In this document: one piece after another, positions 10,042 through 47,522 of the stretch | Position numbering within the stretch: the stretch's first letter is position 1 | How the letters are laid out: every line of letters begins with the position of its first letter | Virus record (IMG/VR): IMGVR_UViG_3300011416_000014 | Coordinates: 1 to 51,418 of that record | Length of the DNA stretch: 51,418 nt | Strand: one strand, 5' to 3' | DNA from: a virus | Made by a program: the position numbers and the translations under genes | The notes under the pieces: generated by a model | The model's input: the letters and a program-made list of their open reading frames with translations, nothing else | Database searches by the model: none | What the model was told of the DNA's origin: nothing

Positions 10042-11673
10042 CTAGGTGGTGGGGAAATCTTCTTCGTTCAGCACTTCGATGATCTCGACCCCACAGTTCA
10101 TGTAGTTGGTGTGCTGCCAGGTCTCGGTGAAGGCGTCACTCTCGAACCTGCTCAATCGGGCTCGCGCAATGCGCGCCACGTCCGCAGGATCCAAATTGAT
10201 GTCGATCGGGTCGTCCATCGTGATGCGGAAAACCGTCAATACCTGATCGATCGTGACGGCTTCGCGCACGTAGACCATGCCGTCGTTCATGATGATCCCG
10301 ACGTGCTCGAACTCTTCCTGAAAGTCGGCCAGGTCGCCGATCTCCGCCACGCTGATGAAGGTGCCGGTTGGGTCGATGTCGACGGTTTCGAAGTATTGAT
10401 CCTGGTCGATGTGCCAGAAGCTGCGCAGGCGCCCGCGACGGGTCTCGAAGAACTCCAAGACGTTCCACATCTCGTCGCGCTTGCCGGTGAGCACGTACTT
10501 ATGGACCTGGCGGCTTCGGTCGCCCTCGGCGTTCACGAAGTCGGCGCGGCCGGCGTCTGAACGATCGCCGTAGCGCGACCTTCCCTTCGTGATCCCCTGC
10601 ACCCAGTCAGGCTCTTCGTACCAAATCGGGCGGCCGTTATAAATCTCGGCGCCCGTGGGGTTGTCAGAGCGTAGCGGCGGCAACTGAGAGGCGCCCGGGG
10701 CCTCGGCCATCGTGATCTTCACGACGGGCACCCGCGCGGTCTGGTAGTTGGCCTCTACCTCCAGGATGACCTCGCAGTCCATCATCGGGAAGACCAGCGA
10801 GCCGGCGGCCACGTCGACCCCGAGTGGATCTTCGAACGTCAGGCTGTTGTTGCTCTTCCCTTCGATGATGTGGAATGAGAATGAGACCGGCACGAAATCC
10901 TTGTCGACCTGCACGATTGCCACGCGCTGGCCGAGAAAGAAGCGTGCCTTGGTGGTGTCGACGACAATCGTCGAGTCGGCTGCATCATAGGCCGCATCCA
11001 GTTCACGCTGATCCATGTAGATGGGCACGGGGAAGCGCTGATCGGTCAGCCGGCGCAGCGCGACCTCGATTCGCTCCAGCCGTGCAAGATCGATGTGGGC
11101 GCAGATCATCCACTCCAGGTCCAGCGTGCGGAAGGGCTTCAAGGTCAGCCCGCGGCGAGAGTCCGCGCCGGAGTCAGGCGAGTGAACCACGCTGGTGCGG
11201 AACGAGCTGGTCATCTTGGCTTGCGTAGCCCAGTTGTGCAGGAACACATGGGCATCGTCAGGCAGGGCCAGAGGGTCGACCGGGCCAGCGGAGCCTTGAC
11301 GGGCCAGCACCTCGATCGATACCCGCGAGCACTGGATCTCAGCGCCCGTGGCATCGAACTGCCCAGCGACCATTACGTCCTCGCGTGTGACGCCGGCCTG
11401 CGCGACCTCCTCGGCCAGAACCTCGATCGAGAGCCGCGAGGTTTGCACTTCGTCGGTGCCGTCGAACTCCCCGGCTACCTGCACGTCTTCGCGGGTGACG
11501 CCGGCCTGTTTGGGATCCTCCCCTAGCACTTCGATCGACAAGCGTGACGTGCGAACTTCTTCGGTGCCATCCATGTTGGCGCCGACCTGCACGTCCTCGC
11601 GAGTAACGTCGCACACCGTGCCCTCGTCGCCGAGGATCTCGATGTTCAGCCGTGATGTGTTTACGGCGACCAT
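10042..11673 (-). CDS. Distal tail protein (DUF2460/lambda gpM-like) with N-terminal repeats
   Basis: 543 residues. Residues 6-126 are three and a third tandem repeats of about 36 residues (TSRLSIEVL...AGVTREDVQVAG.FDG). The rest is a beta-rich tail protein, with a C-terminal part (VHKYVLTGKRDEMWNVLEFFETRRGRLRSFWH) like the DUF2460 / minor-tail ring that links tape measure and hub. The start overlaps the previous stop (TGATG). SR.S.EVL units are known in other phage minor tail proteins, where they may form beta strands on the tail surface. Position between lectin-like paralogues and the BR0599 protein supports the call. Confidence 0.7.
   Translation of the reverse strand: MVAVNTSRLNIEILGDEGTVCDVTREDVQVGANMDGTEEVRTSRLSIEVLGEDPKQAGVTREDVQVAGEFDGTDEVQTSRLSIEVLAEEVAQAGVTREDVMVAGQFDATGAEIQCSRVSIEVLARQGSAGPVDPLALPDDAHVFLHNWATQAKMTSSFRTSVVHSPDSGADSRRGLTLKPFRTLDLEWMICAHIDLARLERIEVALRRLTDQRFPVPIYMDQRELDAAYDAADSTIVVDTTKARFFLGQRVAIVQVDKDFVPVSFSFHIIEGKSNNSLTFEDPLGVDVAAGSLVFPMMDCEVILEVEANYQTARVPVVKITMAEAPGASQLPPLRSDNPTGAEIYNGRPIWYEEPDWVQGITKGRSRYGDRSDAGRADFVNAEGDRSRQVHKYVLTGKRDEMWNVLEFFETRRGRLRSFWHIDQDQYFETVDIDPTGTFISVAEIGDLADFQEEFEHVGIIMNDGMVYVREAVTIDQVLTVFRITMDDPIDINLDPADVARIARARLSRFESDAFTETWQHTNYMNCGVEIIEVLNEEDFPTT
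11296..11658 (-). repeat. Tandem coding repeats (3.3 units of about 108 nt)
   Basis: Units run 11658-11551, 11550-11443, 11442-11332 and a partial 11331-11296. Each encodes TSRL-x-IE[VI]L at its start and VTREDV about 18 residues later. Units 2 and 3 are the most alike, so expansion is probably recent. A repeat array like this can change copy number by slipped replication. Confidence 0.85.
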
Positions 11674-29131: not shown

Positions 29132-29316
29132 CCGCCGCGCTCCTGTTCGGTGATCTCGTGCTCGACGATCTTGCGGTACATGGTGCTGGCCCCGATCCCG
29201 AGCAGGATGGCGGCGGTCTCGGCGTGGCCGCCCGACGACTTCAGCGCGCGAAGGATAACCGCTCTTTCGGCTTCGCGCAAGGAGTCCGGTCCAAGTTCTC
29301 CTAACCGCAGGATCAT
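29128..29316 (-). CDS. Fis/NtrC-type HTH DNA-binding protein
   Basis: 62 residues. LREAERAVILRALKSSGGHAETAAILLGIGASTMYRKI is the C-terminal HTH_8 domain of Fis and NtrC activators, free of the AAA+ part. No ligand domain. Flanked by ATGA overlaps on both sides. In a phage it could be an architectural or transcription factor for late genes or a packaging-site binder (small-terminase-like role); the sequence does not decide. Stands within the DNA repair cluster. Confidence 0.8.
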   Translation of the reverse strand: MILRLGELGPDSLREAERAVILRALKSSGGHAETAAILLGIGASTMYRKIVEHEITEQERGG

Positions 29317-30407
29317 GGGTAGACTCGCCCATCGCCAGGGAAGATGATCCGTTCGAGGCGAGTGATCGTGCCTTCCTGGATCCAGCCGCTGCCGCCAAAG
29401 CCATCTACGTCTTCGCTCTCGTCGCGCACGAGTCGCTCCGCGACTCGATGTACCCGGATGACCCGATTGCAGTAGCCGTCTTCACGCAGGGCTTGCACAC
29501 GCGCCAGGACGTGACTTCGTGTGCGTACACTCGATGGCAGTTCGCACCAGAGGAAACCGTCGTCGGTTGGCGCGGGCAGTTGGACTTCGATGGTGAAGAG
29601 GAGAGGCTGTCCCTCGATCGCGCCTTCACCTCTTGCGCGAAGCGGATTGGGCACGGCCGCTTTGAACGACAGCGGCTCTCCAGGGATCAATTCGCGACTG
29701 CCCCACTCCGGCGAATCCAGGACTTCATCCTCCTGGTCGTAATCGATCTCGGGCGGCGAGATCCCGACGCATGGCGTGCCCTTCAAATCAAACTTGCACG
29801 GCTGGCTGCCGACGATCCCTCCCTGCTTGTACTCCGGGCCATGCTGCAGAGAGCCTTGTTCCACGGCGTGGTAGGACTGTTCCATGTATTCGATGATCGA
29901 GGCTCGTGCTGCCGCTGTCTGTTTATCAGCCCTTTCGCACTCCCCTGCATGAAATAAGTGACTAACCAGGTCGCGGTTCTCGTCGATCACCTTGGCCTCG
30001 CTAGTAACAGTGTAGGGCTTGCTGAAATCGCTTTCATTGCCCACACCGATGAGCGTGCGAGCGTTCGGGTAACGGTAGCGCGTGTCATCGCCTATCCCCC
30101 GCTCGCGGAATGTGATGAGCATCGCCAGGTTGGTGATCGCGTGATCCAAGTGCGGCAACCCGCTCTCGGTGTCGGTGTCCTCGCCACGATGCCAGGCCAT
30201 CAGGTGCCGCATCAACGAAGCATAGGGCTGCAGCCACGGGAAGCCCTTGGCCCAGTTCCAGTCGTCGTACTTCTGCGAGCCGTGCGTGAACACCCGGCCC
30301 ATAGCCTCCACGGCCTCGGCCGGCACCAGCTCCAGCCGCACTTTGCCGTCGTCGAACCTGGCGGCCTGCGTCGGGTCGCCCAGCTGTTGATTGTACGGAC
30401 TGGTCAT
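29313..30407 (-). CDS. dATP/dGTP diphosphohydrolase-like (DUF5664) protein with C-terminal extension
   Basis: 364 residues. ATG 30407 is chosen because GGAGGCAACG precedes it; an ATG at 30443 would couple to the polymerase stop. Residues 16-95 match the N-terminal domain of phage dATP/dGTP diphosphohydrolases: ARFDDGKVRLELVPAEAV, VFTHGSQKYDDWNWAKGF, RHLMAWHRGEDTDTESGLPHLDHAITN. This domain is named for MazZ-type enzymes, which supply nucleotides for 2-aminoadenine synthesis in S-2L-like phages, though it is widespread in other phages. The C-terminal 250 residues are unrelated (VEQGSLQHGPEYKQGG, beta-rich end) and of unknown role. It follows the polymerase gene. Confidence 0.7.
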   Translation of the reverse strand: MTSPYNQQLGDPTQAARFDDGKVRLELVPAEAVEAMGRVFTHGSQKYDDWNWAKGFPWLQPYASLMRHLMAWHRGEDTDTESGLPHLDHAITNLAMLITFRERGIGDDTRYRYPNARTLIGVGNESDFSKPYTVTSEAKVIDENRDLVSHLFHAGECERADKQTAAARASIIEYMEQSYHAVEQGSLQHGPEYKQGGIVGSQPCKFDLKGTPCVGISPPEIDYDQEDEVLDSPEWGSRELIPGEPLSFKAAVPNPLRARGEGAIEGQPLLFTIEVQLPAPTDDGFLWCELPSSVRTRSHVLARVQALREDGYCNRVIRVHRVAERLVRDESEDVDGFGGSGWIQEGTITRLERIIFPGDGRVYP

Positions 30408-30439
30408 CGTTGCCTCCGGAAGTGGTTCGAAGAAGGTTG

Positions 30440-32704
30440 TCATTTCTGGGCCGGCTTCCACGGGATCAACTTCCCGCTCTCATCGCGCACAGGCTCAGCG
30501 GCTTTCGACCAGACCACCGTCAGCAACGCTTCATCGGTGCGTACTCTTATTGAACTTAGGATCATGCTGGCGCTCTCACGGATCAGCCGCGCAACTTCCT
30601 CACACTGCGGCGCCCACAGTTCGGGATCGGCGGTCGTTTCACCGACGATCTGATCGTGGATGAACCCGATCGGGCGGGCGCCGTACAGCACGCTGCCCAT
30701 CGTGGGATCGTAGCACGCCCGGCTAACCACGATCATCCCGGCCAGCGCGGCCTCCGCGCCCGGCGACTGCATGCTCGCGCCATTTGCCGCAGCGCAGTAG
30801 GACGCGCCGACGCGCACCATGCCGAGCGGGGTGGTGTAGCGGTACATCGTGTGCTCGCCGGTGGTGTTGGCTTGGTCGGTCTGCGCGTTGACCCAGTCGA
30901 AGAAGCGTGGCATCTCTGGGTAGGTGGCCTTCCACATCTCTCTGAAGTCGCGCGCCTGCTCCTCGGTCATGATGACGCCGTAGGTCTGCCGCGCGAACGT
31001 GACCTGCGTTGCCGGCCCCAGCCCGCCAGGGTAGCCCAACCCAACCGGCTTCGCGAACGTGCGGTAGTGCTTGTAGAAGGCGCGCACTTCCTGGCTGTCA
31101 TGCTTCTTCAGAAGCCGGAAGGCTTCGTACACCGCCATCGGCTTGGCCAGGATGCCTTCGGACCTGCAGAGTTGCGCAAACTCGCGCGCCATCCCTTCGT
31201 CGGTGCCGAGAGCCAGCTGCGCGCCGAGGTAAGCGTGCAGGTCGACCCCTGCGTTGTACAGGTCGCGGTGGACCGACGCGCCGAACAGCTTGTAGGTGGT
31301 GTCGCCGACAGCGGCCAGCTCCAGCCCGGTCACGTCCACGTCGAAGAACACGCGGCCGTGGCGGGGCTTGAAGCACCGGCGCGGATCTAGGCCGCGGATC
31401 TCGTTCGGGATCTGCGTGATGTTCACGCTGGCGTATAGGCGCGGCTCGCCGGCCTTGCGCGCCTTGCCGCCGTCGTAGCTGGAGATGCGGCCGGTCTCCT
31501 TCAGCGCGTCGTAGTCGGGGTAGACCACCGGCCCCGCGCGCAGCGCGGGGATCATCTGAGTGACGATCTTCTGCAGGCTCTGGCGCTCGTGATACTGCGC
31601 CATGACCGGATCCTTCGTGGCGAGGTACTCCTGGACCTCGGCGTCGCACTGGATCGACCCGCCCGGCGTCATCGTCGGGATCTCGCCGAGCTTCCGGTAC
31701 AGGTCTTCGAGATAAGCCTGCAGCTTCTTGGTGTCCTTGCTGCCCGGCTCGCCCTTCGCCTTGCGGAACTTGATGCCCTGCGCTTTCAGCATCTCGGCCA
31801 ACGGGGTCCAATCCAGGATCTCAGTTGCGGCTATGGGAAGCTCAGCATCCAGTTCACCGTGCTGTACCAGGTCTTCAAGAATCTCCAGCGCCCGCGGCAG
31901 ATCCTTGGCGAATGGCTCGCCCACCATGCTCGCCGGCCGCAGGATGCCGTGCTCCTCCAGCAGCGACTTGTTCGCCTCGATGACCGCGGTGGTGGCGGCC
32001 TCCATGGCGTCGGTCGCGGCCTGGTCTACCTCCATGCCCCACGCGGTCGCGAGGCGCAGGACGACGGACTTGGTGAGCTGGAACTCCTCGGTGACGAAGG
32101 AGCCCTCCTCGAATGCGGCGCGGGCTTCCTGCGCTTCGTAGACCCGCAGCGTGTGCTCGCCGTCGCCCGCGGCGTAGTCGTGCGCCTCTTCCGGGTACTC
32201 ATCAGACCGCCAACCGTCGAGCGCTGAGAAGTTCAGCCGCCAGGTGTCCGGCTCGCCGCTCTTTTCGGCGCTGATGTCCTCGCCGAGGTACTTGAGCACC
32301 AGCGCTGCCAGTCCGTAACGGATCTCGACGCGCGAACCGTCGGGCATCTCCATCTCGTCGAGCCGGCCGGTGGTGGAGAGATTGAGCAGCTTCTCGCGCC
32401 AGAGGGTGTCAGTGCAGCGGCCGTCGATCAGCGCTGAGAATACCAAAGGGATCAGGTTCGGATACGAACCGCACACCACGGCCCAGTCGAAGCCGCCGTT
32501 GTGTGTGACCCACCGCACGTCCTCCGCCTGCAACAACTCTTCCAGCACTAATTCCAGCCATTCGTCTGGATGGTTGCCGATTACTTCGGTGCGTAGAGCG
32601 CCATCCTCAGTGCGCTCGGTGAAGATGGCACAGACCAGCCGCGGCACGATATTGCCCGGACCGATCAGGTGGGTCTCGGTGTCGAACGCGATCAGGGTGG
32701 TCAT
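30440..32704 (-). CDS. Family A DNA polymerase with 3'-5' exonuclease
   Basis: 754 residues. Exo motifs: IAFDTETH (Asp8, Glu10), THNGGFDW (Asp73) and AHDYAAGDGEH (Asp), so proofreading is probably intact. Polymerase motif A is FFDVDVTGLELA (Asp457, gate Glu461; the Arg of DYSQIELR is Ala here), motif B RTFAKPVGLGYPGGLG (Arg548, Lys552; F762 and Y766 positions are Leu and Gly), and motif C FIHDQIVGE (Asp684; the usual HDE Glu is Gln). No 5'-nuclease domain. ATG 32704 overlaps the RNA ligase stop. The motif changes are discussed under findings. It copies the phage genome together with the primase and helicases encoded downstream of the small-gene region. Confidence 0.9.
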   Translation of the reverse strand: MTTLIAFDTETHLIGPGNIVPRLVCAIFTERTEDGALRTEVIGNHPDEWLELVLEELLQAEDVRWVTHNGGFDWAVVCGSYPNLIPLVFSALIDGRCTDTLWREKLLNLSTTGRLDEMEMPDGSRVEIRYGLAALVLKYLGEDISAEKSGEPDTWRLNFSALDGWRSDEYPEEAHDYAAGDGEHTLRVYEAQEARAAFEEGSFVTEEFQLTKSVVLRLATAWGMEVDQAATDAMEAATTAVIEANKSLLEEHGILRPASMVGEPFAKDLPRALEILEDLVQHGELDAELPIAATEILDWTPLAEMLKAQGIKFRKAKGEPGSKDTKKLQAYLEDLYRKLGEIPTMTPGGSIQCDAEVQEYLATKDPVMAQYHERQSLQKIVTQMIPALRAGPVVYPDYDALKETGRISSYDGGKARKAGEPRLYASVNITQIPNEIRGLDPRRCFKPRHGRVFFDVDVTGLELAAVGDTTYKLFGASVHRDLYNAGVDLHAYLGAQLALGTDEGMAREFAQLCRSEGILAKPMAVYEAFRLLKKHDSQEVRAFYKHYRTFAKPVGLGYPGGLGPATQVTFARQTYGVIMTEEQARDFREMWKATYPEMPRFFDWVNAQTDQANTTGEHTMYRYTTPLGMVRVGASYCAAANGASMQSPGAEAALAGMIVVSRACYDPTMGSVLYGARPIGFIHDQIVGETTADPELWAPQCEEVARLIRESASMILSSIRVRTDEALLTVVWSKAAEPVRDESGKLIPWKPAQK

Positions 32705-38738: not shown

Positions 38739-39719
38739 GCTGCTTGCCTCCTTGGCTGTGCCCCGCTTCCGGGGAGTTGGTAGGGGTAGGTCGAGTCTCG
38801 ACCCTGTTCGTTGTTCCAGCAGACGCGCGACTCGCGTCTGATATACCTCAGGACTCTCAGTGCGTCCACAGATTTGCGCAAACGGGCAGGCTTGACCGTA
38901 CCAGTGCGCGCACTTGCCGGTGTCGGTTGGGCCGGGAACATCCGACCACTCCTTGACCTTGGACGTGCGTTCGATGCGGTCGGCGACTTCGTGCAGGTAC
39001 TCGCCGTGTGCTGCGATCTCGTCGGGGGACAGGACGGCTTCGACCTTGGTAACTCCGGGACCTTCGAACTTGGGGTACTGGTTGTGGCGCAGCCGCACGC
39101 TGTCATTCCAGCCGTCGAGCTGTGACGTGACCCATGCGTAAGTGCGCAGCTGTTGGTTCTTGCCGAGGTAGTTCGGCGAGTCGGGGTCCTCGCGCTTGAG
39201 GTAGCGCACGCTACCCTTGCCGTAGCTCTTGTGATCGCCGATCTCGGGCAGCTCACGTTCTGTGCCTGCACGAAACAGGTCGATGTAGCCGACCAGTTGC
39301 ACATTCTCGGTGATCGCAATGCGAATCGAGCGCTCCAGTTGCATCGACGGAGTGCGGTAGATGATCCCGTTCTCGATCGCCTCGGCCACGAGGGCCTGGA
39401 TCTGTCGCGCCTCGGTCGGCGTGACCTCGGCCGTGCTGCCGTCCATCTCAGTGGCGACCATCCAGCCCTTCGGGTACAGGTTGACCGGCTGCCCACCTAG
39501 CTGACCCTGGAACAGACCCTCGGCGATGGTCGCACCGTCCGGCCCAGGCACTCGCCCGTTGTCCGTCGCGCTCAGCCAGCGCTCGATGACGGAGTGCAGC
39601 ACCGTACCGAACGTGAAGTGCGCTGCCGGCGGCTCTTTCAGTTTCAGGACGCGGCGCAGCCACCAGTGCCTTGCACAATCCTCATAGGTGTCGATCTGCG
39701 ATGCAGAGATCGTAATCAC
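37821..39719 (-). CDS. Cas4/RecB-like PD-(D/E)XK nuclease fused to a zinc-finger region
   Basis: 632 residues from GTG 39719 overlapping the SF3 helicase stop. The nuclease part has GTVLHSVIERW (His42), VGYIDLF (Asp147), EIGDHKS (Asp162, Lys164) and QLRTYAW (Gln190, Tyr194). Cys15, Cys270, Cys278 and Cys284 have the four-Cys iron-sulphur layout of Cas4/AddB. It ends near 320. Then follows an Ala/Pro/Gln-rich linker (about 332-388), a CxxC...CxxC finger (Cys392, 395, 407, 410), a second Pro/Ala linker and a 90-residue helical C-terminal domain. Phage Cas4-like enzymes trim DNA ends for recombination. The fused second half is unusual. Confidence 0.8.
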   Translation of the reverse strand: MITISASQIDTYEDCARHWWLRRVLKLKEPPAAHFTFGTVLHSVIERWLSATDNGRVPGPDGATIAEGLFQGQLGGQPVNLYPKGWMVATEMDGSTAEVTPTEARQIQALVAEAIENGIIYRTPSMQLERSIRIAITENVQLVGYIDLFRAGTERELPEIGDHKSYGKGSVRYLKREDPDSPNYLGKNQQLRTYAWVTSQLDGWNDSVRLRHNQYPKFEGPGVTKVEAVLSPDEIAAHGEYLHEVADRIERTSKVKEWSDVPGPTDTGKCAHWYGQACPFAQICGRTESPEVYQTRVARLLEQRTGSRLDLPLPTPRKRGTAKEASSVSIFDRAKQQQAQQAARQEAAGTAGAVAAVEQAPPAAPAPAINGGIPPAAPPSAIGGAPWANLNCRACKGRGLSSSGRACPICDATAKKAGKPTSMAYIIELDDAGKGVAVAREEQAEALQKAGLPLEWIEADSPAQPAAPAPVAPPVVATVQEPFTAPVVMSPERQAVVETLVKQAPEPVQEAPKAPAAKAAAGNKGGRPTVGVTLLIGAVQLRGPSRPTITSAEVLARFGAELAADMGAESYWQLDTFKRRERLAQKADYIAGELARHVVVHPGILGNDDVGSLLQALMGLKEGVEAVITRVG

Positions 39720-41773
39720 GCGGTGCCCTTTCCTGACAAGACGACGGCGATCATGTCGTCGCCGCCTGGCTGCGCGGCGAGCATCCGCTCAGTGCGAGCC
39801 ATGGTCATGCCGTACCTCATCCCCTCTTCGAACAGGATGCCCAGGTCGATCTCCACCCAGCGGGCGCGCTGCTCGCGCTGACTGCCGGGCGGGCTAGTGA
39901 CCTCGGCGCGGCCTGCGTCGTCGTGCTTGCTGAACTGCCGCAGCACGCGGCCCGCGATCGGCAGCGAAATCTCCCCGTATGCCGAAGTCAGGCCCGATTC
40001 GGCTATTTCGACCACGCCGGCAGGCGTGACCCACACGCGGTTCTCGTGGACGTGCAACCCACGGCGCGACGTGCTGCCACTGGCCTCGATCATCTTCACC
40101 AGTGAGCGTAGCACGGTCTGTGCGCCCTTGGACCGCAGCCTCATCTCGCGGACGATCTGCGTGCTTGTCTCGCCCTCCACCAGCAGCCGGCCGGCGCCGA
40201 TCAGCGACGGCTTGCGGTTCTCGAACAAGTAGAAGATGTGATTGGCCAACGTGTACTCGCTACCCTTGTGCCCGGCGACCCAGCCCGCCGTGTACTTGTA
40301 GTTGCCGCGCCGGGTCAGCAGCGACTGCGCTGCTTCGAGGACTTCGATCGACAAAAGCCGCTGCTCGATGGCCTGGATGTCGTCGGCCGTCAGGTCGCGG
40401 TGGCCAACGATGCTGCGCACGATGTCGCGGTCGTTCGACGTGAACAAGATGCGCGGGTAGATGTCGGCGTTGAAGGGGTCGCGGTGCATGGCGCGGATGG
40501 TGATCCGGCCGCCGGTCACGAGCGAGCGGAAGGCTTGGTCTACGGTCATCGCCTCATCGTTGTTGATCTGCGGCACGCCCTCATCGCAGTTCACCACGGG
40601 GGAGTCGAGCAAGCCGACGTTGAACTTCCCAAGCGCGCGGCCGTCGTTGCGGTGCCCGCCCTCGAAGCACTCGGCCAGGCCGGCGGCCAGCATGCCCTTG
40701 CCGGTGCCCGGCGGACCGAAGAGGTTGAGCGCGCAGATCGCGCGGCGCACGTCCAGGCTGTGCGCCAGCCACTCGGTCAGCCGGTCGTACTGCTGGCCGG
40801 CGAGCGCCTGCAACCACTCGTCCACGCGCAGGTCGAAGATAGGCACCAGCTTGGGGTTCAGCCTGTGGACGGGGACGTGCAGCACCTTGTGCCCTCCAGC
40901 GCCGTCGATGTAGGCGACCGACTCGCGCGCCGAGCACTCGATGGTGGTGATCGGCACAGCATGCTCGTTGAGCAGCGCGGTCGCGGTGCGCGTCACGACT
41001 TGCTTGCCGCGGATCTCGGTGGTGGGGATGACCTCCTCCATCCCCAGGTCGCGAATCATGGGAATCAGCATGGAGTCTGAGATCGGGCGGATGTTGTACG
41101 AACCGTCTGGCCTCATGACGTGGTGCCTGCGCCCGTCGCTGGCGATCATCCGCGCCAGGAACCAGACCTGCGCGGCGTCCGCGTCGGCGGGCACGTCCTG
41201 CGGCCTGGCCTCGCGAACCTGAGCGATCAACTGCTGACGCAGTTGCTCTCCGCTCTGCACCTTTTGCCGGCGGTCGTTGTGCTCGGCAAGGATCTGCGAT
41301 TCCTCGGTGGCCCAGAGCCTGCATATCAAGTCCCAAGTCGTCGCGAACCAGTCGGTCTCGTTGGCGCCGCGCGTCTCGCGGTCGTGCAGCTGTTCGATGG
41401 CGGAGTGCAGCAGCGCGTAGATCCCCTCTGGGGTCACGTCTTCCTGCCGCGCGAGCATGCCGATGGTCTGGCCGACGATGCGCGTGACCTGGTTGTTCCA
41501 GTTCGCCTCGCCCTCGGCGATCGGCGCGTGCTCGAAGCACACCGCGTAGGCCGGGCGGCCCGACAGGTAGGTCTTCGCCAGCTTCACCAACGGGCTGTCG
41601 TAGATGCGCCCGTTGCCCCCCTCGTAGGTCAGCATGCCCCGGATCTCGTCCGGGTCTGGCGCGTCTCCCTGGTGAGTCTCGACTGGCGCAAACGAGCCCG
41701 CGGCCTGCGCCTCTGCGCGTGGCGCAGTGGCAACGTCCAGGATCGGCCCGCCGGTGACGAGAATCGGGTTCAT
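39716..41773 (-). CDS. SF3 (D5-like) replicative helicase
   Basis: 685 residues; ATG 41773 overlaps the primase stop (ATGA). Walker A FGPPGTGKG (352-360), Walker B VVNCDEG (393-399), then ILFTSNDRDI with the sensor Asn (motif C). The N-terminal 300 residues are helical and lack a primase active site, so primase and helicase are split over two genes here, unlike many phages that fuse them. The hexameric helicase would unwind the replication fork. It is coupled to the AEP-like gene before and the nuclease fusion after it. Confidence 0.85.
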   Translation of the reverse strand: MNPILVTGGPILDVATAPRAEAQAAGSFAPVETHQGDAPDPDEIRGMLTYEGGNGRIYDSPLVKLAKTYLSGRPAYAVCFEHAPIAEGEANWNNQVTRIVGQTIGMLARQEDVTPEGIYALLHSAIEQLHDRETRGANETDWFATTWDLICRLWATEESQILAEHNDRRQKVQSGEQLRQQLIAQVREARPQDVPADADAAQVWFLARMIASDGRRHHVMRPDGSYNIRPISDSMLIPMIRDLGMEEVIPTTEIRGKQVVTRTATALLNEHAVPITTIECSARESVAYIDGAGGHKVLHVPVHRLNPKLVPIFDLRVDEWLQALAGQQYDRLTEWLAHSLDVRRAICALNLFGPPGTGKGMLAAGLAECFEGGHRNDGRALGKFNVGLLDSPVVNCDEGVPQINNDEAMTVDQAFRSLVTGGRITIRAMHRDPFNADIYPRILFTSNDRDIVRSIVGHRDLTADDIQAIEQRLLSIEVLEAAQSLLTRRGNYKYTAGWVAGHKGSEYTLANHIFYLFENRKPSLIGAGRLLVEGETSTQIVREMRLRSKGAQTVLRSLVKMIEASGSTSRRGLHVHENRVWVTPAGVVEIAESGLTSAYGEISLPIAGRVLRQFSKHDDAGRAEVTSPPGSQREQRARWVEIDLGILFEEGMRYGMTMARTERMLAAQPGGDDMIAVVLSGKGTA

Positions 41774-42351
41774 GCTCTCACGGTGCAGGGGAGGCGGAAG
41801 AGGCGGGTCCAGTCGGAGCACTGCTCATCGAACTGCACCCCAAGGGCGGCGAAGCGTTGAATCATGCCGATCGTGAGGGCCTCGGCCTCGGTCGGCCCGA
41901 CCTCCTCACTGAGCACGTAGATGAGCCGCGAGCCGTGCAGGGTGGAGTAGAAGGCAGTGGGCTCCGGCAAGCCTGGTTGAGCCAACGCAACAAGGTGCTG
42001 CTCGAACCGCTCCGGAGTCCAGCGCGCTTTCTTTCCATCGACGTGCAGGTCGAAGTCGAACACCAGCAGAGGAATCCGCACGCGCCCGCCAGCCTCTTCG
42101 AGTTGCTGCAGGAACGGACTTCGCTTCGACACGCGGGCGAAGGCGAACTCGTCGCCGGAAGGGTCGGCGTCCAGGCGGTACAACAGGAAGTGCGCGTCCT
42201 GGTCCCACGCACGAGTCAGGGCCTCGCTCAGTGGCAGGTGTTCGTCGCACAGCACGAGCGCCGCGCGCTCCGGGTCCTGCAGGTCAGTCAGCGACTTGGC
42301 CGCTGGGTGACGATCCCTGGCGTAGATGATACCGATGGTCGGGTCGTTCAT
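41770..42351 (-). CDS. Archaeo-eukaryotic-type primase (prim-pol) catalytic domain
   Basis: 193 residues; GGAGG precedes ATG 42351. LLVFDFDLHVDGKKARW carries the D-x-D pair (Asp99, Asp101). STLHGSRLIYVLSEE is the strand like SGRGLHLY of AEP enzymes, and CSDWTRLFRLPCTVRA is the closing R-rich motif with a third Asp (180). There is no zinc-binding or helicase domain. Translational coupling to the SF3 helicase strongly suggests the two act together. Probably makes primers de novo. Small for a prim-pol, so accessory domains may sit in the helicase N-terminus. Confidence 0.75.
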   Translation of the reverse strand: MNDPTIGIIYARDRHPAAKSLTDLQDPERAALVLCDEHLPLSEALTRAWDQDAHFLLYRLDADPSGDEFAFARVSKRSPFLQQLEEAGGRVRIPLLVFDFDLHVDGKKARWTPERFEQHLVALAQPGLPEPTAFYSTLHGSRLIYVLSEEVGPTEAEALTIGMIQRFAALGVQFDEQCSDWTRLFRLPCTVRA

Positions 42352-42385
42352 GGGTGCCTCCAAGGTAGCCGAGAACTTCCCCGCG

Positions 42386-42961
42386 TCAACTGCCGAATTG
42401 AAGATCCTGCAGCCGGGTGCGGAACAAGCCCTCTGCAGCTCGCCACTCATAACCGATCGGCTGAATGGCGTTCGGCACCAAGATGTCCAGGTTGCGATCG
42501 TACCAGCTGGGGATGATGCTACGCAGCGTGCGGACTTCTCGGTGCAGGATGATGGTGTCGTACCGCTTGATTCGTCCCCAGACCGGGTCTTTGTTGGGCG
42601 GCAGGCGCAGCGCGTGCCGCACGACCAGCTCCATGGAATCCTCGAACCTATCCCAACCCTCGATCATCCGCTTCTGGGGGCTGGCCACGTCGCCTATGTA
42701 GGCTTCGTGCGCGTCGTGCAGCAAGCCAGGCAACATGGCTTCCTCATCTCCAACGTGCTCGGCGATGAGGCTGACCCACACGGAGTGCTCGGCGACCGAG
42801 TAGAACTTGTCCAGGTGCCCGCGGTAGCGACAGCACATCGCCAGCGAGCGCCTGATGTCCTCCATGCGGATGTCCTTAGGCTCGACGGTCTCTGGCGGGC
42901 CGATGTTCACGCCGGTAAGGGTCGTGATGTAGGGGTGTTTGCGTGCCGGATGTTCGATCAT
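42386..42961 (-). CDS. HD-domain phosphohydrolase (YfbR/DatZ-like)
   Basis: 191 residues from ATG 42961 with AAAGGGACGCC upstream. FYSVAEHSVWVS (His59), LLHDAHEAYIGD (His82, Asp83, Glu86, Asp91) and a later Asp near KRYDTII give the H...HD...D metal site. This form is common in phages and includes DatZ, the dATP triphosphohydrolase of 2-aminoadenine phages, as well as YfbR 5'-nucleotidases. Which substrate applies cannot be read from the sequence. Lies next to the replication genes. Confidence 0.8.
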   Translation of the reverse strand: MIEHPARKHPYITTLTGVNIGPPETVEPKDIRMEDIRRSLAMCCRYRGHLDKFYSVAEHSVWVSLIAEHVGDEEAMLPGLLHDAHEAYIGDVASPQKRMIEGWDRFEDSMELVVRHALRLPPNKDPVWGRIKRYDTIILHREVRTLRSIIPSWYDRNLDILVPNAIQPIGYEWRAAEGLFRTRLQDLQFGS

Positions 42962-43356: not shown

Positions 43357-43665
43357 TCACTGCCCCAACTGTTCGGGCAGACTAAGCGTCTTCATCAAGA
43401 GTCCCAAGACCAAGTCCATCGTGCGACTTCCTGTACCCTCCAGGCTGTACCAGACCTCGGCGGGTTTCGGGGGCACATGGATCAGTCGGTGCTCTTTCAC
43501 GAAGAAGACCTGTTCGTGTCGCCAGCTTGCCTCACCCATCTCGTCCCGGTTGAAATGTTCGAGGGTCAGCCGGATTCTGCCTTCGTTTTCCCTCCTGGCG
43601 ATCAACCGACTCTGCGAACTCTGGCACAGAATCGTGCGTTGGTTGACAGCGGTAGGCCAGTTCAT
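43357..43665 (-). CDS. Unknown protein, last gene of the GGDEF cassette
   Basis: 102 residues, ATG 43665 overlapping the previous stop (ATGA). Beta-rich N-terminal half with basic residues (SRLIARRENEGRIRLTLEHFNRDEMG, then HEQVFFVKEHRLIHVPPKPAEVWYSL), then a helical C-terminus (MDLVLGLLMKTLSLPEQL). It closes a run of eight overlapping genes that includes the GGDEF protein. Could be an effector or unrelated. A 61-nt gap follows. Confidence 0.55.
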   Translation of the reverse strand: MNWPTAVNQRTILCQSSQSRLIARRENEGRIRLTLEHFNRDEMGEASWRHEQVFFVKEHRLIHVPPKPAEVWYSLEGTGSRTMDLVLGLLMKTLSLPEQLGQ

Positions 43666-43910
43666 GCGATCCACCCGCGCTCCCGCGCCAGCGCCCGCTG
43701 CACCGGCGTCAGCTCTGCGATGCGCTTCGCCCGGTAGCGAGGGTTCAGCCGCTTGCGGAAGAAGTTCTTCCCGAGCCGACGCTTCAGCTGCCACTCGTCC
43801 ACGTCGAGCTGCATGTCCCGCGCGGTCGGGGCCGGGATGTTCTCCTCGTTGAAGCGCGGCAGCAGCGCGCCCAGCACCGACTTGAAAGCTGACTTCAGTG
43901 TGTTGAACAT
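43662..43910 (-). CDS. Small basic protein
   Basis: 82 residues. N-terminal amphipathic helix (FNTLKSAFKSVLGALLPRF), then Arg/Lys-rich segment (QLKRRLGKNFFRKRLNPRYRAKRIAEL). The composition fits nucleic-acid or membrane-surface binding. Both ends overlap neighbours by 4 nt. No recognised family. Confidence 0.55.
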   Translation of the reverse strand: MFNTLKSAFKSVLGALLPRFNEENIPAPTARDMQLDVDEWQLKRRLGKNFFRKRLNPRYRAKRIAELTPVQRALARERGWIA

Positions 43911-44200
43911 CAGTTCCCCTTCCAAACGTAAGGGTAGCCGTGGTCGCGCTCGAACGCGCGTCCCCGGACCGAGTCCGACCACTCGCGCACTTGCTCGCTG
44001 GTGGCCTCGATGTCGACCAACCGCTGCCAGCCGACAGGGTCCTCCGCCTTCGGGTCGATCGTCAGCCAGTGGAGCCGATCGAAGTCCACCGGCTTGTACT
44101 CGTTGCTGGTGGGGAACTCGTGCTTGGCCATGGTAAATACAAGCACCGGCCCGCTGGTCCCGATGACCAGTACGAAAAGGACGCCGAGTAGCGTCTTCAT
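43910..44200 (-). CDS. Small membrane-anchored protein
   Basis: 96 residues. N-terminal signal anchor (LLGVLFVLVIGTSGPVLVF, residues about 4-22) followed by an acidic, probably periplasmic or cytoplasmic domain (DFDRLHWLTIDPKAEDPVGWQRLV, EQVREWSDSVRGRAFERDHG). The stop and next start share one base. Coupled directly to the 35-residue membrane peptide below the GGDEF gene. No family recognised. Confidence 0.6.
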   Translation of the reverse strand: MKTLLGVLFVLVIGTSGPVLVFTMAKHEFPTSNEYKPVDFDRLHWLTIDPKAEDPVGWQRLVDIEATSEQVREWSDSVRGRAFERDHGYPYVWKGN

Positions 44201-44304
44201 CGGTTTCTCCTGCGCAGTAGGGTGGCCAGGCCCAGCGCCAGACCCAAGAGCGGCAGAGTCATCATGGCGATGCCTCCCCAGAACACGATTTCGTAGGTAC
44301 TCAT
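44197..44304 (-). CDS. 35-residue single-span membrane peptide
   Basis: Almost all of the peptide is a transmembrane helix (EIVFWGGIAMMTLPLLGLALGLATLL) ending in a basic RRRNR, so it is N-out/C-in by the positive-inside rule. ATG 44304 overlaps the GGDEF stop and its own stop overlaps the next start. Tiny phage membrane peptides often regulate or inhibit membrane proteins. Translation would be coupled to the GGDEF protein. Confidence 0.6.
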   Translation of the reverse strand: MSTYEIVFWGGIAMMTLPLLGLALGLATLLRRRNR

Positions 44305-44786
44305 TCCAAGCCTCCGGTTTTGTGCAAGTACATGGCAGCATCGGCGGCGGCCGGGTCCTTGCCCAGTCCCGCCGCAGCTGTGACTTCCCCGTGTTGGCTG
44401 CGCCACGCACGGATGACATCGCGAATGCGCAGCGCGCCTACGCGCGTCTCGCACCAGACCAGGAACTCGTCCCCGCCGGTGCGCGCGATGAGCACGTCTC
44501 GGGCGCGCTCTGAGTGTTGCCGAGTGTGCCGCAGCACGAACTCGGTGAACTCCTGCAGGACCAAGTCCCCGAACGCATGCTTGTCCGGGTGCGCGTCCTG
44601 CGCGGCCTTGAAGCCGTTGAGGTCCACCGCCACGAACCACCCCCAGTCCCGGGCGCGCGTCCTGCGCTCCAGTCCTCGACGGTTCAAGAGTCCCGTGAGA
44701 GAGTCCGTGTCGGCTTGCATCATCAGATCATCGGCCCGCTCTTCCGCGGCCCTCAGCTCTTCTATTACGGCTTCGTAGTCAGCCAT
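44301..44786 (-). CDS. GGDEF-domain protein (diguanylate-cyclase-like)
   Basis: 161 residues from ATG 44786 (GAGGAAC upstream, overlapping the previous stop TGATG). After 25 helical residues come TDSLTGLLNRRGL (motif start), FVAVDLNGFKAAQDAHPDKHAFGDLVL (metal Asp and Lys), RARDVLIARTGGDEFLVW (intact GGDEF), VTAAAGLG and AADAAMYLHKTGG. It is a nearly minimal catalytic domain without sensor, PAS or membrane part. The Asn of FKxxND that contacts guanine in PleD is Gln here (FKAAQD), and two extra residues precede the conserved GD. An RARD I-site-like motif is one residue farther from GGDEF than normal. It would make a cyclic dinucleotide or bind one. Phage GGDEF genes are uncommon. Confidence 0.85.
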   Translation of the reverse strand: MADYEAVIEELRAAEERADDLMMQADTDSLTGLLNRRGLERRTRARDWGWFVAVDLNGFKAAQDAHPDKHAFGDLVLQEFTEFVLRHTRQHSERARDVLIARTGGDEFLVWCETRVGALRIRDVIRAWRSQHGEVTAAAGLGKDPAAADAAMYLHKTGGLE

Positions 44787-45082
44787 CACAGTTCCTCGGG
44801 TAGATCGATGCCCTCGAACGGGTTGTCCGCGGAGTATTCCAGGATGTTGGCCCGCAAGCGCAGCGCTCGAATCGCTATCCGCGTGGCTTGCTCCTTGAGC
44901 TTGAGTAACTCTTTGATAGAGTCCGGCGGGTTGGTCCCGTGAATCTCCCGGAACTTCGCCACTTCCCGGACGACTTCCACGAACCGCCCTTGCGCTTCGA
45001 CGAACGCGGCATTAGCGCCGTCGTAAGCCACTTGCAACGCAGCGAGATCCGCGTCCGCGTCCGCGTCCTCGTCCTCAGTCAT
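44786..45082 (-). CDS. Acidic coiled-coil protein
   Basis: 98 residues. N-terminal Asp/Ala repeat (EDEDADADADLAAL) encoded by a run of GAC/GCG codons, then two long helices (YDGANAAFVEAQGRFVEVVREVAKF and IKELLKLKEQATRIAIRALRLRANIL) that could form a coiled coil. Overlaps both neighbours. Might be an antitoxin-like or regulatory partner of the GGDEF protein; nothing specific supports that. The GAC/GCG run may slip during copying. Confidence 0.55.
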   Translation of the reverse strand: MTEDEDADADADLAALQVAYDGANAAFVEAQGRFVEVVREVAKFREIHGTNPPDSIKELLKLKEQATRIAIRALRLRANILEYSADNPFEGIDLPEEL

Positions 45083-45269
45083 CGTTCGGGTCCTCGTCCG
45101 CGTCCTGCTGGGCAGTCACCGCCGGCTCCCGGTCCCAAAGCATGAGAACGTGCCAGCGCTCGATGCCGAACTCCTCCGCTACAGCGCGCGGGGGCTTGAT
45201 ACCCTCCAGGCTGAGGATCTCTGCTTCCTCGGCCGGTGACAGCACCCGCTGGATTCGATCCCAGTCCAT
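45075..45269 (-). CDS. Small HTH-like protein
   Basis: 64 residues. LSPAEEAEILSLEGIKPPRAVAEEFGIERWHVLMLW reads as a short helix-turn-helix of the recombinase/sigma-region type, ending in an acidic tail (QQDADEDPNDD). The end overlaps the next gene by 8 nt, and the start follows a stop with no gap (TGAATG). May regulate its own cassette. Weak family assignment. Confidence 0.5.
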   Translation of the reverse strand: MDWDRIQRVLSPAEEAEILSLEGIKPPRAVAEEFGIERWHVLMLWDREPAVTAQQDADEDPNDD

Positions 45270-45422
45270 TCAGTACCCCAGCCACCGGCGCACGGCCGCC
45301 CAAGTCGGCAGGAGAAGCGTCCAAGAGTCCTCGTCCGTGGTCCGGACGGCGAGTCCCTCCCCGTGCGGCTGGGCTTGGCACCCGTGCAGTCGAACGTGTC
45401 GTGCGAGTCGATCGGTCTTCAT
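45270..45422 (-). CDS. 50-residue protein, first gene of the GGDEF cassette
   Basis: ATG 45422 with AAGGTG about 6 nt upstream; the stop (TGA 45270-45272) is followed directly by the ATG of the next gene. The product begins MKTDRLARHVRLHGCQAQPHG and ends DSWTLLLPTWAAVRRWLGY. It is basic with His/Arg/Trp and has no obvious family. The tight junction supports that it is real. The 67 nt upstream (45423-45489) contain TACAAT, a possible -10, but no good -35. Confidence 0.5.
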   Translation of the reverse strand: MKTDRLARHVRLHGCQAQPHGEGLAVRTTDEDSWTLLLPTWAAVRRWLGY

Positions 45423-45489: not shown

Positions 45490-46119
45490 TCAGTCTGCCG
45501 TATAGGGCTGACCGTCGGGGAGGCACGGCGCCGGCCGCCAGTGAGTCACGCCGTCGAATCGATATCCATCTTCGTGGTCCACCCGCCAATAGAGTGGACT
45601 TTCCGGATCCGGATAAGCCGTCAAGGACGCAAAGACTTGCACGTACCCGCCAGTTACGATGACCGGGTCCGAGGTAAACCACTGCCGCCCGCGTTTCATC
45701 AACGGCAAAGCGTCCTCGACGGCAGTCCATGCGTCCGTGGGCCGAGTCCAGGCGAGCAGTCGTTCGACCGTGTCCGGGAAGACTTCCAGCTCCTTGGCCA
45801 AGTCCTCCAATCCGTCGTCCAGCAAGCCGGCGAAGTACGGGCCGGCGCGGAACGCTTCCTCCGACTCGCACGATACCCGGCCGAGCCAAACATCGCCCGT
45901 TAGGGCTAGGGGGAAACTGGGGCATTCGGCGCGCAAATGCACCCGGCACCAACCCCAGTCCGTGCGTGCGGCAAGCTCTGCAACCTCAAGCTCGGCCGCA
46001 CGTTCCTCCTCCGGGTCGTTCGATGCTAGCACGTTCCCGGCGATCTGAGAAGGCTCGGGATGAGGAACCAGTGTGATGGTCGCATGCGACCGCAGGAACT
46101 CCAGGAGACGGGGATTCAT
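45490..46119 (-). CDS. Unknown protein with shared N-terminal module (MNxRLLEFLR)
   Basis: 209 residues. ATG 46119 overlaps the previous stop. Residues 1-25 (MNPRLLEFLRSHATITLVPH and PEPSQ) are nearly identical to the start of the protein at 46561-47013, so the two genes share a module. The rest is an unrelated domain (GWCRVHLRAECPSFPLALTG, LLAWTRPTDAWTAVEDALPLM, SPLYWRVDHEDGYRFDG), acidic and aromatic-rich. It looks like an immunity-type or phage small-protein domain, but no family is recognised. Confidence 0.6.
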   Translation of the reverse strand: MNPRLLEFLRSHATITLVPHPEPSQIAGNVLASNDPEEERAAELEVAELAARTDWGWCRVHLRAECPSFPLALTGDVWLGRVSCESEEAFRAGPYFAGLLDDGLEDLAKELEVFPDTVERLLAWTRPTDAWTAVEDALPLMKRGRQWFTSDPVIVTGGYVQVFASLTAYPDPESPLYWRVDHEDGYRFDGVTHWRPAPCLPDGQPYTAD

Positions 46120-46325: not shown

Positions 46326-46564
46326 GGCGAGTCCTCGGTTAGAGTCACGGCACCCGCGCTGCCGCGCTTGGCCAGCGGGTCCTCAGTGTCGAGTGCCAGG
46401 ATGCCGGCCTTCAGGCACCGGCCGACGATGTCATATCCGTAGCGGAGCGAGCCGTTCGGGCCGACTCGCTCGGCAAGGTACTTGCAACACGGCACCGCGC
46501 CGCCGGCACGCCGAACGATACGAACCGCTTCGCCCATCTTCGGGCCGATCCGTCGGCGTCTCAT
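46322..46564 (-). CDS. Unknown small protein
   Basis: 80 residues. Basic N-terminus (MRRRRIGPKMGEAVRIVRRAGG) with two adjacent Cys (AVPCCKYLAERVGPNGSLRYGYDIVGRC), suggesting a nucleic-acid-binding winged-helix-like fold, which is inference. ATGA overlaps on both sides. Confidence 0.5.
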   Translation of the reverse strand: MRRRRIGPKMGEAVRIVRRAGGAVPCCKYLAERVGPNGSLRYGYDIVGRCLKAGILALDTEDPLAKRGSAGAVTLTEDSP

Positions 46565-46936
46565 GCGTCCGTCCCCGAAGTCGTCTCATCGTAGAAGGTC
46601 CGCGCGGAAGGGTAAGCACTCCAGTCCGGTTGATCGCCGCCCGAGCGCAACCAACGGCGCAGAGCGAATGCGTACTCCGTTGCGGTTTCGGTGTTTCCCT
46701 CGGCCAGTGCTTCGGCCATTGCTGCGAGATTGGCGTTTGGATCCATGGTGCGTCCTTTCGTTCTGTCGGGAAAGAAGTCGAGACTATTGCCCCCGCGATT
46801 GTAAGTGTAGATTGCGTTCCGCACTTCGGGTTTGCAGTAGGGGTTCCCGGTCCGATCGCCGGTTGTTGCCCAGTGCAGAAGGATATAGAGCGCTCTGCGC
46901 AGCTCGGCAACCTCCTGCGCCTTCAAGCTGGCGTCC
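46561..46936. repeat. 376-bp direct repeat, copy 1
   Basis: Collinear with 47147-47522 with no gaps across 376 bp; roughly 85 per cent identical by eye. Holds the fused small gene. One T-to-A difference (in the gene's strand, TGA in copy 2, AGA here) removes the stop between two units. Confidence 0.85.
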
Positions 46937-47013
46937 TTCTGAGAAGGCTCGGGATGGGGGACGAGTTTGATGGTCGCACGAGTGCGGAGGAACTCCAGCA
47001 GTCGCGTATTCAT
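46561..47013 (-). CDS. Fused mosaic small protein (lost stop codon)
   Basis: 150 residues from ATG 47013 (overlaps previous stop). Three modules: residues 1-25 as in the 45490-46119 protein (MNTRLLEFLRTRATIKLVPH), then KAQEVAELRRALYILLHWATTGDRTGNPYCKP (paralogue 47348-47539), then MDPNANLAAMAEALAEG onward (paralogue 47147-47332). The join reads FFPDRTKGRTMDP; in the duplicate the Arg codon after Asp is a TGA stop. The inner ATG at 46746 still has AAAGGA upstream, so the last module may also be made alone (61 residues). Function unknown. Confidence 0.7.
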   Translation of the reverse strand: MNTRLLEFLRTRATIKLVPHPEPSQKDASLKAQEVAELRRALYILLHWATTGDRTGNPYCKPEVRNAIYTYNRGGNSLDFFPDRTKGRTMDPNANLAAMAEALAEGNTETATEYAFALRRWLRSGGDQPDWSAYPSARTFYDETTSGTDA

Positions 47014-47150
47014 TGGTTCCCCTTGACAAATGACTCGGCCGATTCGCGCGTTCGGAACGTCGCCAGAACTTCCCAGTCCTCGCCCTCTTCCAAGACAACG
47101 TAGAAGAGAGTTCCACTCTCTCCATGCCATGTCACGATTCTGGCGTTCAT
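47010..47150 (-). CDS. 46-residue protein
   Basis: ATG 47150 with GGAGCGGAC just upstream; both ends overlap neighbours (ATGA). Product MNARIVTWHGESGTLFYVVL, then EEGEDWEVLATFRTRESAESF: a strand-turn-strand-helix fold that would be a small beta-sheet protein. Good coding context despite the size. No family recognised. Confidence 0.5.
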   Translation of the reverse strand: MNARIVTWHGESGTLFYVVLEEGEDWEVLATFRTRESAESFVKGNQ

Positions 47151-47332
47151 GCGTCCGCTCCTGAAGTAGTTTCATCGTAGAAGGTCCGCGCGGAAGGGTA
47201 AGCAGTCCAGTCCGGTTGATCGCCCCCGCGCCGCAACCAACGGCGCAAGGCCAGTGCGTACTCGGTTGCGGTTTCGGTGTCTTCCTCAGCCAGCGCTTGC
47301 GCGATTGCTGCGAGATTTGCGTTTGGATCCAT
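47147..47332 (-). CDS. Unknown small protein (module C, unfused copy)
   Basis: 61 residues starting MDPNANLAAIAQALAEEDTE and ending in SARTFYDETTSGADA. ACGAAAGGACGCATC lies before the ATG. Near-identical to the C-terminal third of the fused protein at 46561-47013. Helical with an aromatic end. Function unknown. Confidence 0.65.
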   Translation of the reverse strand: MDPNANLAAIAQALAEEDTETATEYALALRRWLRRGGDQPDWTAYPSARTFYDETTSGADA

Positions 47333-47522
47333 GATGCGTCCTTTCGTTCAGTCGGGAAAGAAGCTGAGGCTATCGCCCCCGCGGTTGTAGGTGCGGATTG
47401 CGTTCCGCACTTCGGGTTTGCAGTACGGGTTCCCTGTCCTGTCGCCTGTCGTTGCCCATTGCAGAAGGATATAGAGCGCTCGGCGGATCTCTGCAATCTC
47501 CTGCGCCTTGAGTCTTGCGTCC
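47147..47522. repeat. 376-bp direct repeat, copy 2
   Basis: Matches 46561-46936 over its whole length. It carries the two units as separate genes with a TGA between them. A tandem duplication with one small gene (47010-47150) and the extra N-terminal module lying between the copies. Confidence 0.85.

Follow-up and report, generated by a model that had tools for sequence, protein, structure and literature searches.

The stretch of DNA analysed here (the window) is an entire IMG/VR virus record of 51,418 bases from a tailed phage, and one of its small genes encodes a protein that carries little more than a GGDEF domain. This raises the question of whether the phage has a nucleotide cyclase of its own and, if so, what is made by it. 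If active, the protein would give phages a second-messenger synthase of their own, and cyclic nucleotides are known to have a central place in the defence against phages. The reading we prefer, by a narrow measure and on the basis of sequence comparison and structural modeling, is that the product is a nucleotide cyclase of the GGDEF family, stand-alone and specific to phages.

The gene cassette and the predicted GGDEF fold

The tailed-phage genes of the window include those for the major capsid protein E, a terminase match, a polymerase with an exonuclease domain, a helicase, and RNA and DNA ligases. In an attempt to assign a host, no isolated phage relative was found for the primase, and the terminase and polymerase gave distant matches only. 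The GGDEF gene (44301..44786) lies in a packed run of minus-strand genes. The run opens with a 50-aa ORF (45270..45422), for which no relative was found, followed by a gene for a 64-aa HTH-like protein (45075..45269), whose HTH call comes from an alignment to its relatives. In that alignment, the 64-aa protein covers only the C-terminal half of a NUMOD4-HTH protein of ~125-131 aa, and the NUMOD4 motif was recognized by Pfam in the one relative tested (L004, E 3e-5). The next gene encodes an acidic 98-aa protein (44786..45082; net charge -10) with the conserved C-terminal tail NPFEGIDLPEEL, and it overlaps the start of the GGDEF gene. Downstream of the GGDEF gene, a 35-aa membrane peptide with one hydrophobic segment (44197..44304; Kyte-Doolittle 2.1 over 19 residues), which is not conserved, is followed by a 96-aa protein with an N-terminal membrane anchor (43910..44200; hydrophobic segment 2.4), which was analysed by alignment and dN/dS. 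These are followed by a basic 82-aa protein (43662..43910; net +10), with a conserved KR-x-LG...ARxRGW core, and a 102-aa ORF (43357..43665). The model of the 82-aa protein is all-helical with moderate confidence (pLDDT 74), and a fold search with this model gave no match. The cassette genes are real ORFs whose neighbours abut or share 1, 4 or 8 nt, and G+C is raised at codon position 3 in all of them, a coding-type composition.

The 161-aa product of the GGDEF gene matches the Pfam GGDEF family (PF00990) with an E value of 4e-9 and 36.8 bits, compared to a gathering cut-off of 23.8, and its two motifs, TGGDEF (103-108) and D-L-N-x-F-K (D55-K60), are both intact. It also matches PHROG families of unknown function and PDB profiles of solved GGDEF proteins. 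In the AlphaFold model (pLDDT 81, pTM 0.72), a Foldseek search found the solved diguanylate cyclases WspR, SiaD, DgcB and DgcR as the best matches (E 3e-9 to 1e-8), and the 39 top PDB matches are GGDEF-domain structures. Profile matches and the predicted model together show a GGDEF fold for the 161-aa protein, which has no sensor domain fused to it. The first-pass annotation had thus correctly described a near-minimal, intact and sensor-less GGDEF protein among small, closely spaced genes, and the predicted model of the GGDEF protein agrees with this. The gene is shown to be under purifying selection, with a dN/dS of ~0.2-0.3 between most pairs of relatives, which together with its 14 further phage homologues (see below) speaks against a chance ORF. 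The GGDEF protein is the best conserved of the cassette proteins, with 54-61% identity to the window in its relatives; the corresponding values are 43-46% (82-aa protein), 33-35% (96-aa protein) and ~20-30% (acidic protein).

The base pocket

The 161-aa protein shares with the GGDEF diguanylate cyclases (PF00990; PleD, WspR, DgcR and SiaD) the fold, the metal Asp (D55), Lys60, His70, Gly-Asp74, the hairpin, a C-terminal Lys and the preceding helix. In the alignment with PleD, the residues D55, K60 and D74 correspond to D327, K332 and D344, and G104-F108 corresponds to the GGEEF motif; on the other hand, N335 is replaced by Gln63. The guanine base is contacted in PleD by N335 and D344, both of them reportedly essential (PMC7288161; PMC12943098). 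The searches described below yielded 14 further phage homologues, and in the resulting alignment of 15 distinct proteins, D55, F59, K60, D64, H70, G73, D74, R102 and GGDEF 104-108 are invariant, while K156, the C-terminal Lys, is kept in 14. The position of PleD Asn335 is occupied by Gln in 15/15 members, so that, of the canonical PleD-type guanine contacts, the Asp (D74) is kept and the Asn is replaced throughout. Between the Gln63 site and H-x-x-GD, all 15 proteins have a 12-residue loop (QDAHPDKHAFGD in the window), whereas the bacterial loop has 10 residues. Both the Asn and the 10-residue loop are present in 84/84 bacterial GGDEF domains found with the phage family as bait, a set that was drawn mostly with a GGDEF-side motif, which favours intact enzymes without selecting on residue 335. 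Compared to PleD, the phage proteins also have one extra residue ahead of R-x-GGDEF, and the equivalent of PleD R446 (the second phosphate contact, at the usual C-terminal end) is not conserved, and the phage proteins end early. The RxxD motif is present in 11 of the 15 proteins, including that of the window, one residue farther from GGDEF than in PleD, and is missing in L018, L120, L126 and L136.

The Asn-to-Gln change at the base-recognition position, overlooked in the first-pass annotation, is the more unusual point of this locus. Because Asn335 has become Gln63 in 15/15 members, the protein is not filed here as a proven diguanylate cyclase, and since the residue that grips guanine is normally fixed, c-di-GMP cannot be assumed to be the product. 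Asn335 is one of the two guanine-reading residues, and a clade found only in phages that uses Gln, while selection preserves its other active-site residues, is a natural experiment on base specificity. The Q-type GGDEF may make c-di-GMP, a new product or none.

The last of these cases corresponds to a non-catalytic binder, which the sequences make rather unlikely. A catalytically dead binder of GTP or c-di-GMP, serving as a sponge or as a poison subunit for host diguanylate cyclases, would explain the replacement of a reportedly essential Asn, the loss of the R446 equivalent and the additional residue in the loop before the GGDEF hairpin; however, the metal and catalytic residues, which a pure binder does not need, are invariant over 15 diverged proteins, and the absence of RxxD in 4/15 implies that an I-site c-di-GMP sponge is not general, and we consider this explanation improbable. 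The conserved residues suggest instead that the protein is probably a working cyclase, although Gln63 could lower or abolish activity if Asn335 is as essential as reported for diguanylate cyclases, and the early end of the proteins without the R446 equivalent also speaks against activity.

Gene distribution and neighbourhoods

Protein scans found L002 first and then the viral contigs L004, L008, L009, L015 and L018. The Q-form motif D-L-[DN]-x-F-K-x-A-Q-D was then searched as DNA, and 17 stretches of IMG/VR matched, 15 of which are GGDEFs of the Q clade. Nine new Q-type contigs were found (L120, L122, L126, L127, L129, L130, L132, L135 and L136), and with the L122 and L132 proteins being the same, there are 15 distinct Q-type proteins including that of the window. 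This motif search selects Gln, and close Asn phage relatives are invisible to it; three scans with other motifs likewise returned Gln members only. With a looser Q-form motif, no match in 389 + 387 (776) bacterial genomes is a GGDEF, and the Asn-form motif gave 350 matches in 19 bacterial genomes. Four Q-motif matches in the bacterial genome G334 were rejected, as they are one repeat copied within a long repetitive protein that is not a GGDEF. The bacterial profile search covered ~800 distinct genomes, the draws 'phylum of G006' and 'phylum of G007' being largely the same genomes. The 15 proteins form a single clade (SH-aLRT 98) with the trait (loop) columns removed, and among the material searched this clade is shown to occur only in viral contigs; a cultivated isolate with the Q-type gene was not found. 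A recent capture of a host diguanylate cyclase is not supported: with the profile of this family, the best bacterial matches lie at ~1e-18 to 1e-20, whereas close phage members reach ~1e-80 to 1e-105, and Asn is present in every bacterial domain examined. The comparisons give good support to a phage-specific GGDEF subfamily with a family-wide change of the base pocket.

Small phage GGDEFs have already been annotated in Yuavirus and Vojvodinavirus (Mesyanzhinovviridae; AN14_48, MP1412_43, phages CN2 and FP1). These proteins are likewise single-domain, sensor-less and similar in size, but they have Asn, a short loop and SGDEF/AGDEF motifs, and their neighbours are different (exonuclease, DNA-binding protein and antirestriction protein). 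The GGDEFs of Bacillus phage G (gp350) and Bacillus phage SP-15 are also phage-encoded but have Asn and a short loop, and all of these Asn-type phage proteins branch outside the Q clade. No description of the Gln form or of a phage-only GGDEF clade was found in the literature searched, in which the phrases phage-encoded diguanylate cyclase and viral diguanylate cyclase are also absent; most subscription journals lie outside its coverage.

Two types of neighbourhood surround the Q-type gene. In type A, the cassette is present in eight phages of two subgroups (the window, L002, L004, L015, L008, L009, L122 and L127), and all contigs from the protein scans except L018 share it. In the window, L002, L004, L008, L009 and L015, the NUMOD4-HTH protein comes first, followed by the acidic protein and GGDEF, then by small genes that vary between the phages and lastly by the basic 82-aa protein. 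The acidic protein is upstream of GGDEF in 8/8 cassette phages, directly in six and with one intervening ORF in L122 and L127. Its body has diverged almost past alignment (~20% identity), and its tail PF-x-G-x-x-[VIL]-P-[DE]...EEL is retained, in a looser form in L008, L009 and L122; judged from sequence, this shared tail looks like a docking peptide. The basic KRKLG protein is downstream in 8/8 cassette phages, its homology extending to L122 (hhalign E 6e-17) and L127. The first-pass annotation had proposed synteny as a check, and the acidic-GGDEF-basic order in eight phages of two subgroups rules out an absence of synteny; on the other hand, the membrane genes are variable, and no cassette genes were seen in the type B phages.

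This variation bears on the proposal that a cyclase and a small membrane effector or inhibitor form a module in a single operon. The overlapping genes would be in agreement with this, as would the small anchored or lipobox protein that follows GGDEF in 6/8 cassette phages. However, this protein is of at least two unrelated-looking kinds: homologues of the 96-aa protein are present in four of the eight (the window, L002, L004 and L015; 33-35% identity), and in L122 and L127 an unrelated-looking lipoprotein-like ORF takes its place. L008 and L009 lack a 96-aa-type gene: GGDEF is separated from the basic gene by a small Cys-rich ORF in L008, which is also found in L015 beside the membrane protein, and by nothing in L009. 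In place of the 35-aa peptide, L002 and L004 have another one that is located elsewhere, and none was identified in L008, L009 and L015. In addition, the membrane proteins evolve faster than GGDEF in the same pairs (dN 0.16-0.84 vs 0.08-0.35), and such genes are absent from the ClpP/MazG neighbourhoods of type B. The assignment of the membrane genes as an output or inhibitor is thus not borne out, and a module of this kind is very unlikely.

In type B, where gene calls are mechanical ORFs checked in part by Pfam, a ClpP-like protease gene adjoins GGDEF in L018, L120, L129 and L136 (tested with Pfam in L018 and called by similarity in the other three), and a PRA-PH/MazG-type pyrophosphatase gene overlaps or abuts the GGDEF end in L120, L126, L129 and L130 (tested with Pfam in L120, L129 and L130, and by similarity in L126). 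None of the cassette genes was seen in the type B contigs (L018, L120, L129 and L136, and partly L126 and L130). Since the neighbours of types A and B differ around one GGDEF subfamily, the enzyme is the constant element, and its partners vary with the phage group.

The possible product and mechanism

The preferred explanation, a phage-specific stand-alone cyclase, spans both c-di-GMP and another or mixed cyclic dinucleotide as products, and the competing explanations overlap it in part. From the sequence, c-di-GMP is a serious candidate for the main product, although one in which we place slightly more doubt than belief. With the same reserve, the protein may be a conventional c-di-GMP synthase in which Gln63 brings no change of specificity and whose effect is simply a higher c-di-GMP level in the host, the role proposed for the phages of Yuavirus and Vojvodinavirus. 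The amide group of Gln is that of Asn, and D74, whose counterpart D344 separates c-di-GMP synthases from the Hypr cGAMP synthases, is kept in 15/15. In addition, biofilm formation in some strains was 2-4 times higher in lysogens of phage LK3, which has another small GGDEF, and the authors of that study implicate the GGDEF gene, which was not tested alone (PMC8471281). On the other hand, Asn in 84/84 bacterial domains stands against Gln in 15/15 phage proteins, together with the longer adjacent loop, and a neutral swap is unlikely to stay fixed at such divergence, which counts against an unchanged specificity.

Another or a mixed cyclic dinucleotide as the main product is, to judge by the residues of the pocket, an outside candidate. 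It would come from a rebuilt pocket and be used by the phage for signalling or to decoy nucleotide-sensing defence, which we also regard as unlikely, and it would be consistent with a base-contact position that is altered family-wide and has a longer loop alongside. There is a precedent in mCpol, in which a Ser/Asn swap at the base-contact residue shifts the product ratio, a case that its authors compare to GGDEF and Cas10 (PMC12657218). The Hypr GGDEFs (GacA and Bd0367, cGAMP synthases), a subfamily with a changed guanine contact likewise, switch product via the other contact (PMC12943098, PMC6456294). However, the Hypr change is that of PleD D344 to Ser, while the Q clade keeps this known cGAMP switch and changes N335. 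The PRA-PH/MazG-type genes that directly overlap GGDEF in several phages hint at nucleotide-pool work. It is conceivable, at the same low level of confidence, that the Q clade rebuilt its pocket for a non-c-di-GMP nucleotide or an altered base preference, the product being a messenger or decoy and the partner being the acidic or the PRA-PH/MazG protein, depending on the lineage.

A role in defence invites comparison with Panoptes, whose OptS/mCpol is likewise a minimal palm cyclase with a single domain, belongs to the same wider superfamily and has a product set by the base-contact position. OptS is part of host defence, its GGDEF motif is almost entirely missing and its partner is the S-2TM-beta effector OptE, whereas the phage protein has the GGDEF motif. 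The structural match to OptS/mCpol is weak (9pd0, E 2e-3, rank 49 in Foldseek), and among the GGDEF neighbours no Pfam effector domain of an mCpol/Panoptes-type effector was found. PADLOC gave no defence family match for GGDEF or its neighbours, which argues against a different, defence-directed product.

As a stand-alone cyclase, the protein would form a homodimer via its N-terminal helix, as in other diguanylate cyclases; each subunit would bind one NTP, and the two would be condensed to a cyclic dinucleotide in the infected cell. Because no sensor domain is present and RxxD is missing in 4/15 members, the enzyme is probably free of classical product inhibition and would be active once translated. 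The product would be c-di-GMP, provided that the amide of Gln63 still recognizes guanine, and would otherwise be shifted or mixed. The raised cyclic dinucleotide may act on host effectors in favour of phage growth, for example through motility, surface polysaccharide or pilus receptors; alternatively, it may interfere with nucleotide-based defence. Of the candidates for a direct partner in this lineage, the acidic protein is the most likely one; it would be translated just before GGDEF, and its C-terminal tail is strongly kept.

Several other features of the window were observed. An HD-domain gene (42386-42961, minus) was considered as an HD-GYP phosphodiesterase partner and rejected, as its matches are phage 5'-deoxynucleotidase families. 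Together with a dATP/dGTP diphosphohydrolase domain protein (29313-30461, minus), this HD-type 5'-deoxynucleotidase suggests that the dNTP pool is strongly remodelled; a PurZ-like gene was not noticed in the window, and a modified-base genome is thus without support. The primase-helicase (39716-42450, minus) lies in two overlapping frames of 226 and 701 aa and is a single ORF of ~880 aa in L004 and L008; the frameshift near 41780-41820 reflects an error in the assembly or a genuine split. An SPFH/Band_7 domain protein (1449-2015, plus) is encoded near the terminase gene, and L126 has an SPFH gene directly upstream of its Q-type GGDEF. A duplication of 383 bases (46555-46936 and 47142-47522, 87% identical) spans small ORFs, and a further copy pair of 76 bases is found at 46044-46119 and 46938-47013. 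Finally, an internal direct repeat of ~200 bases with 72% identity (11302-11611) encodes 'SRLSIEVL...GVTREDVQVAG' units in a tail-region protein.
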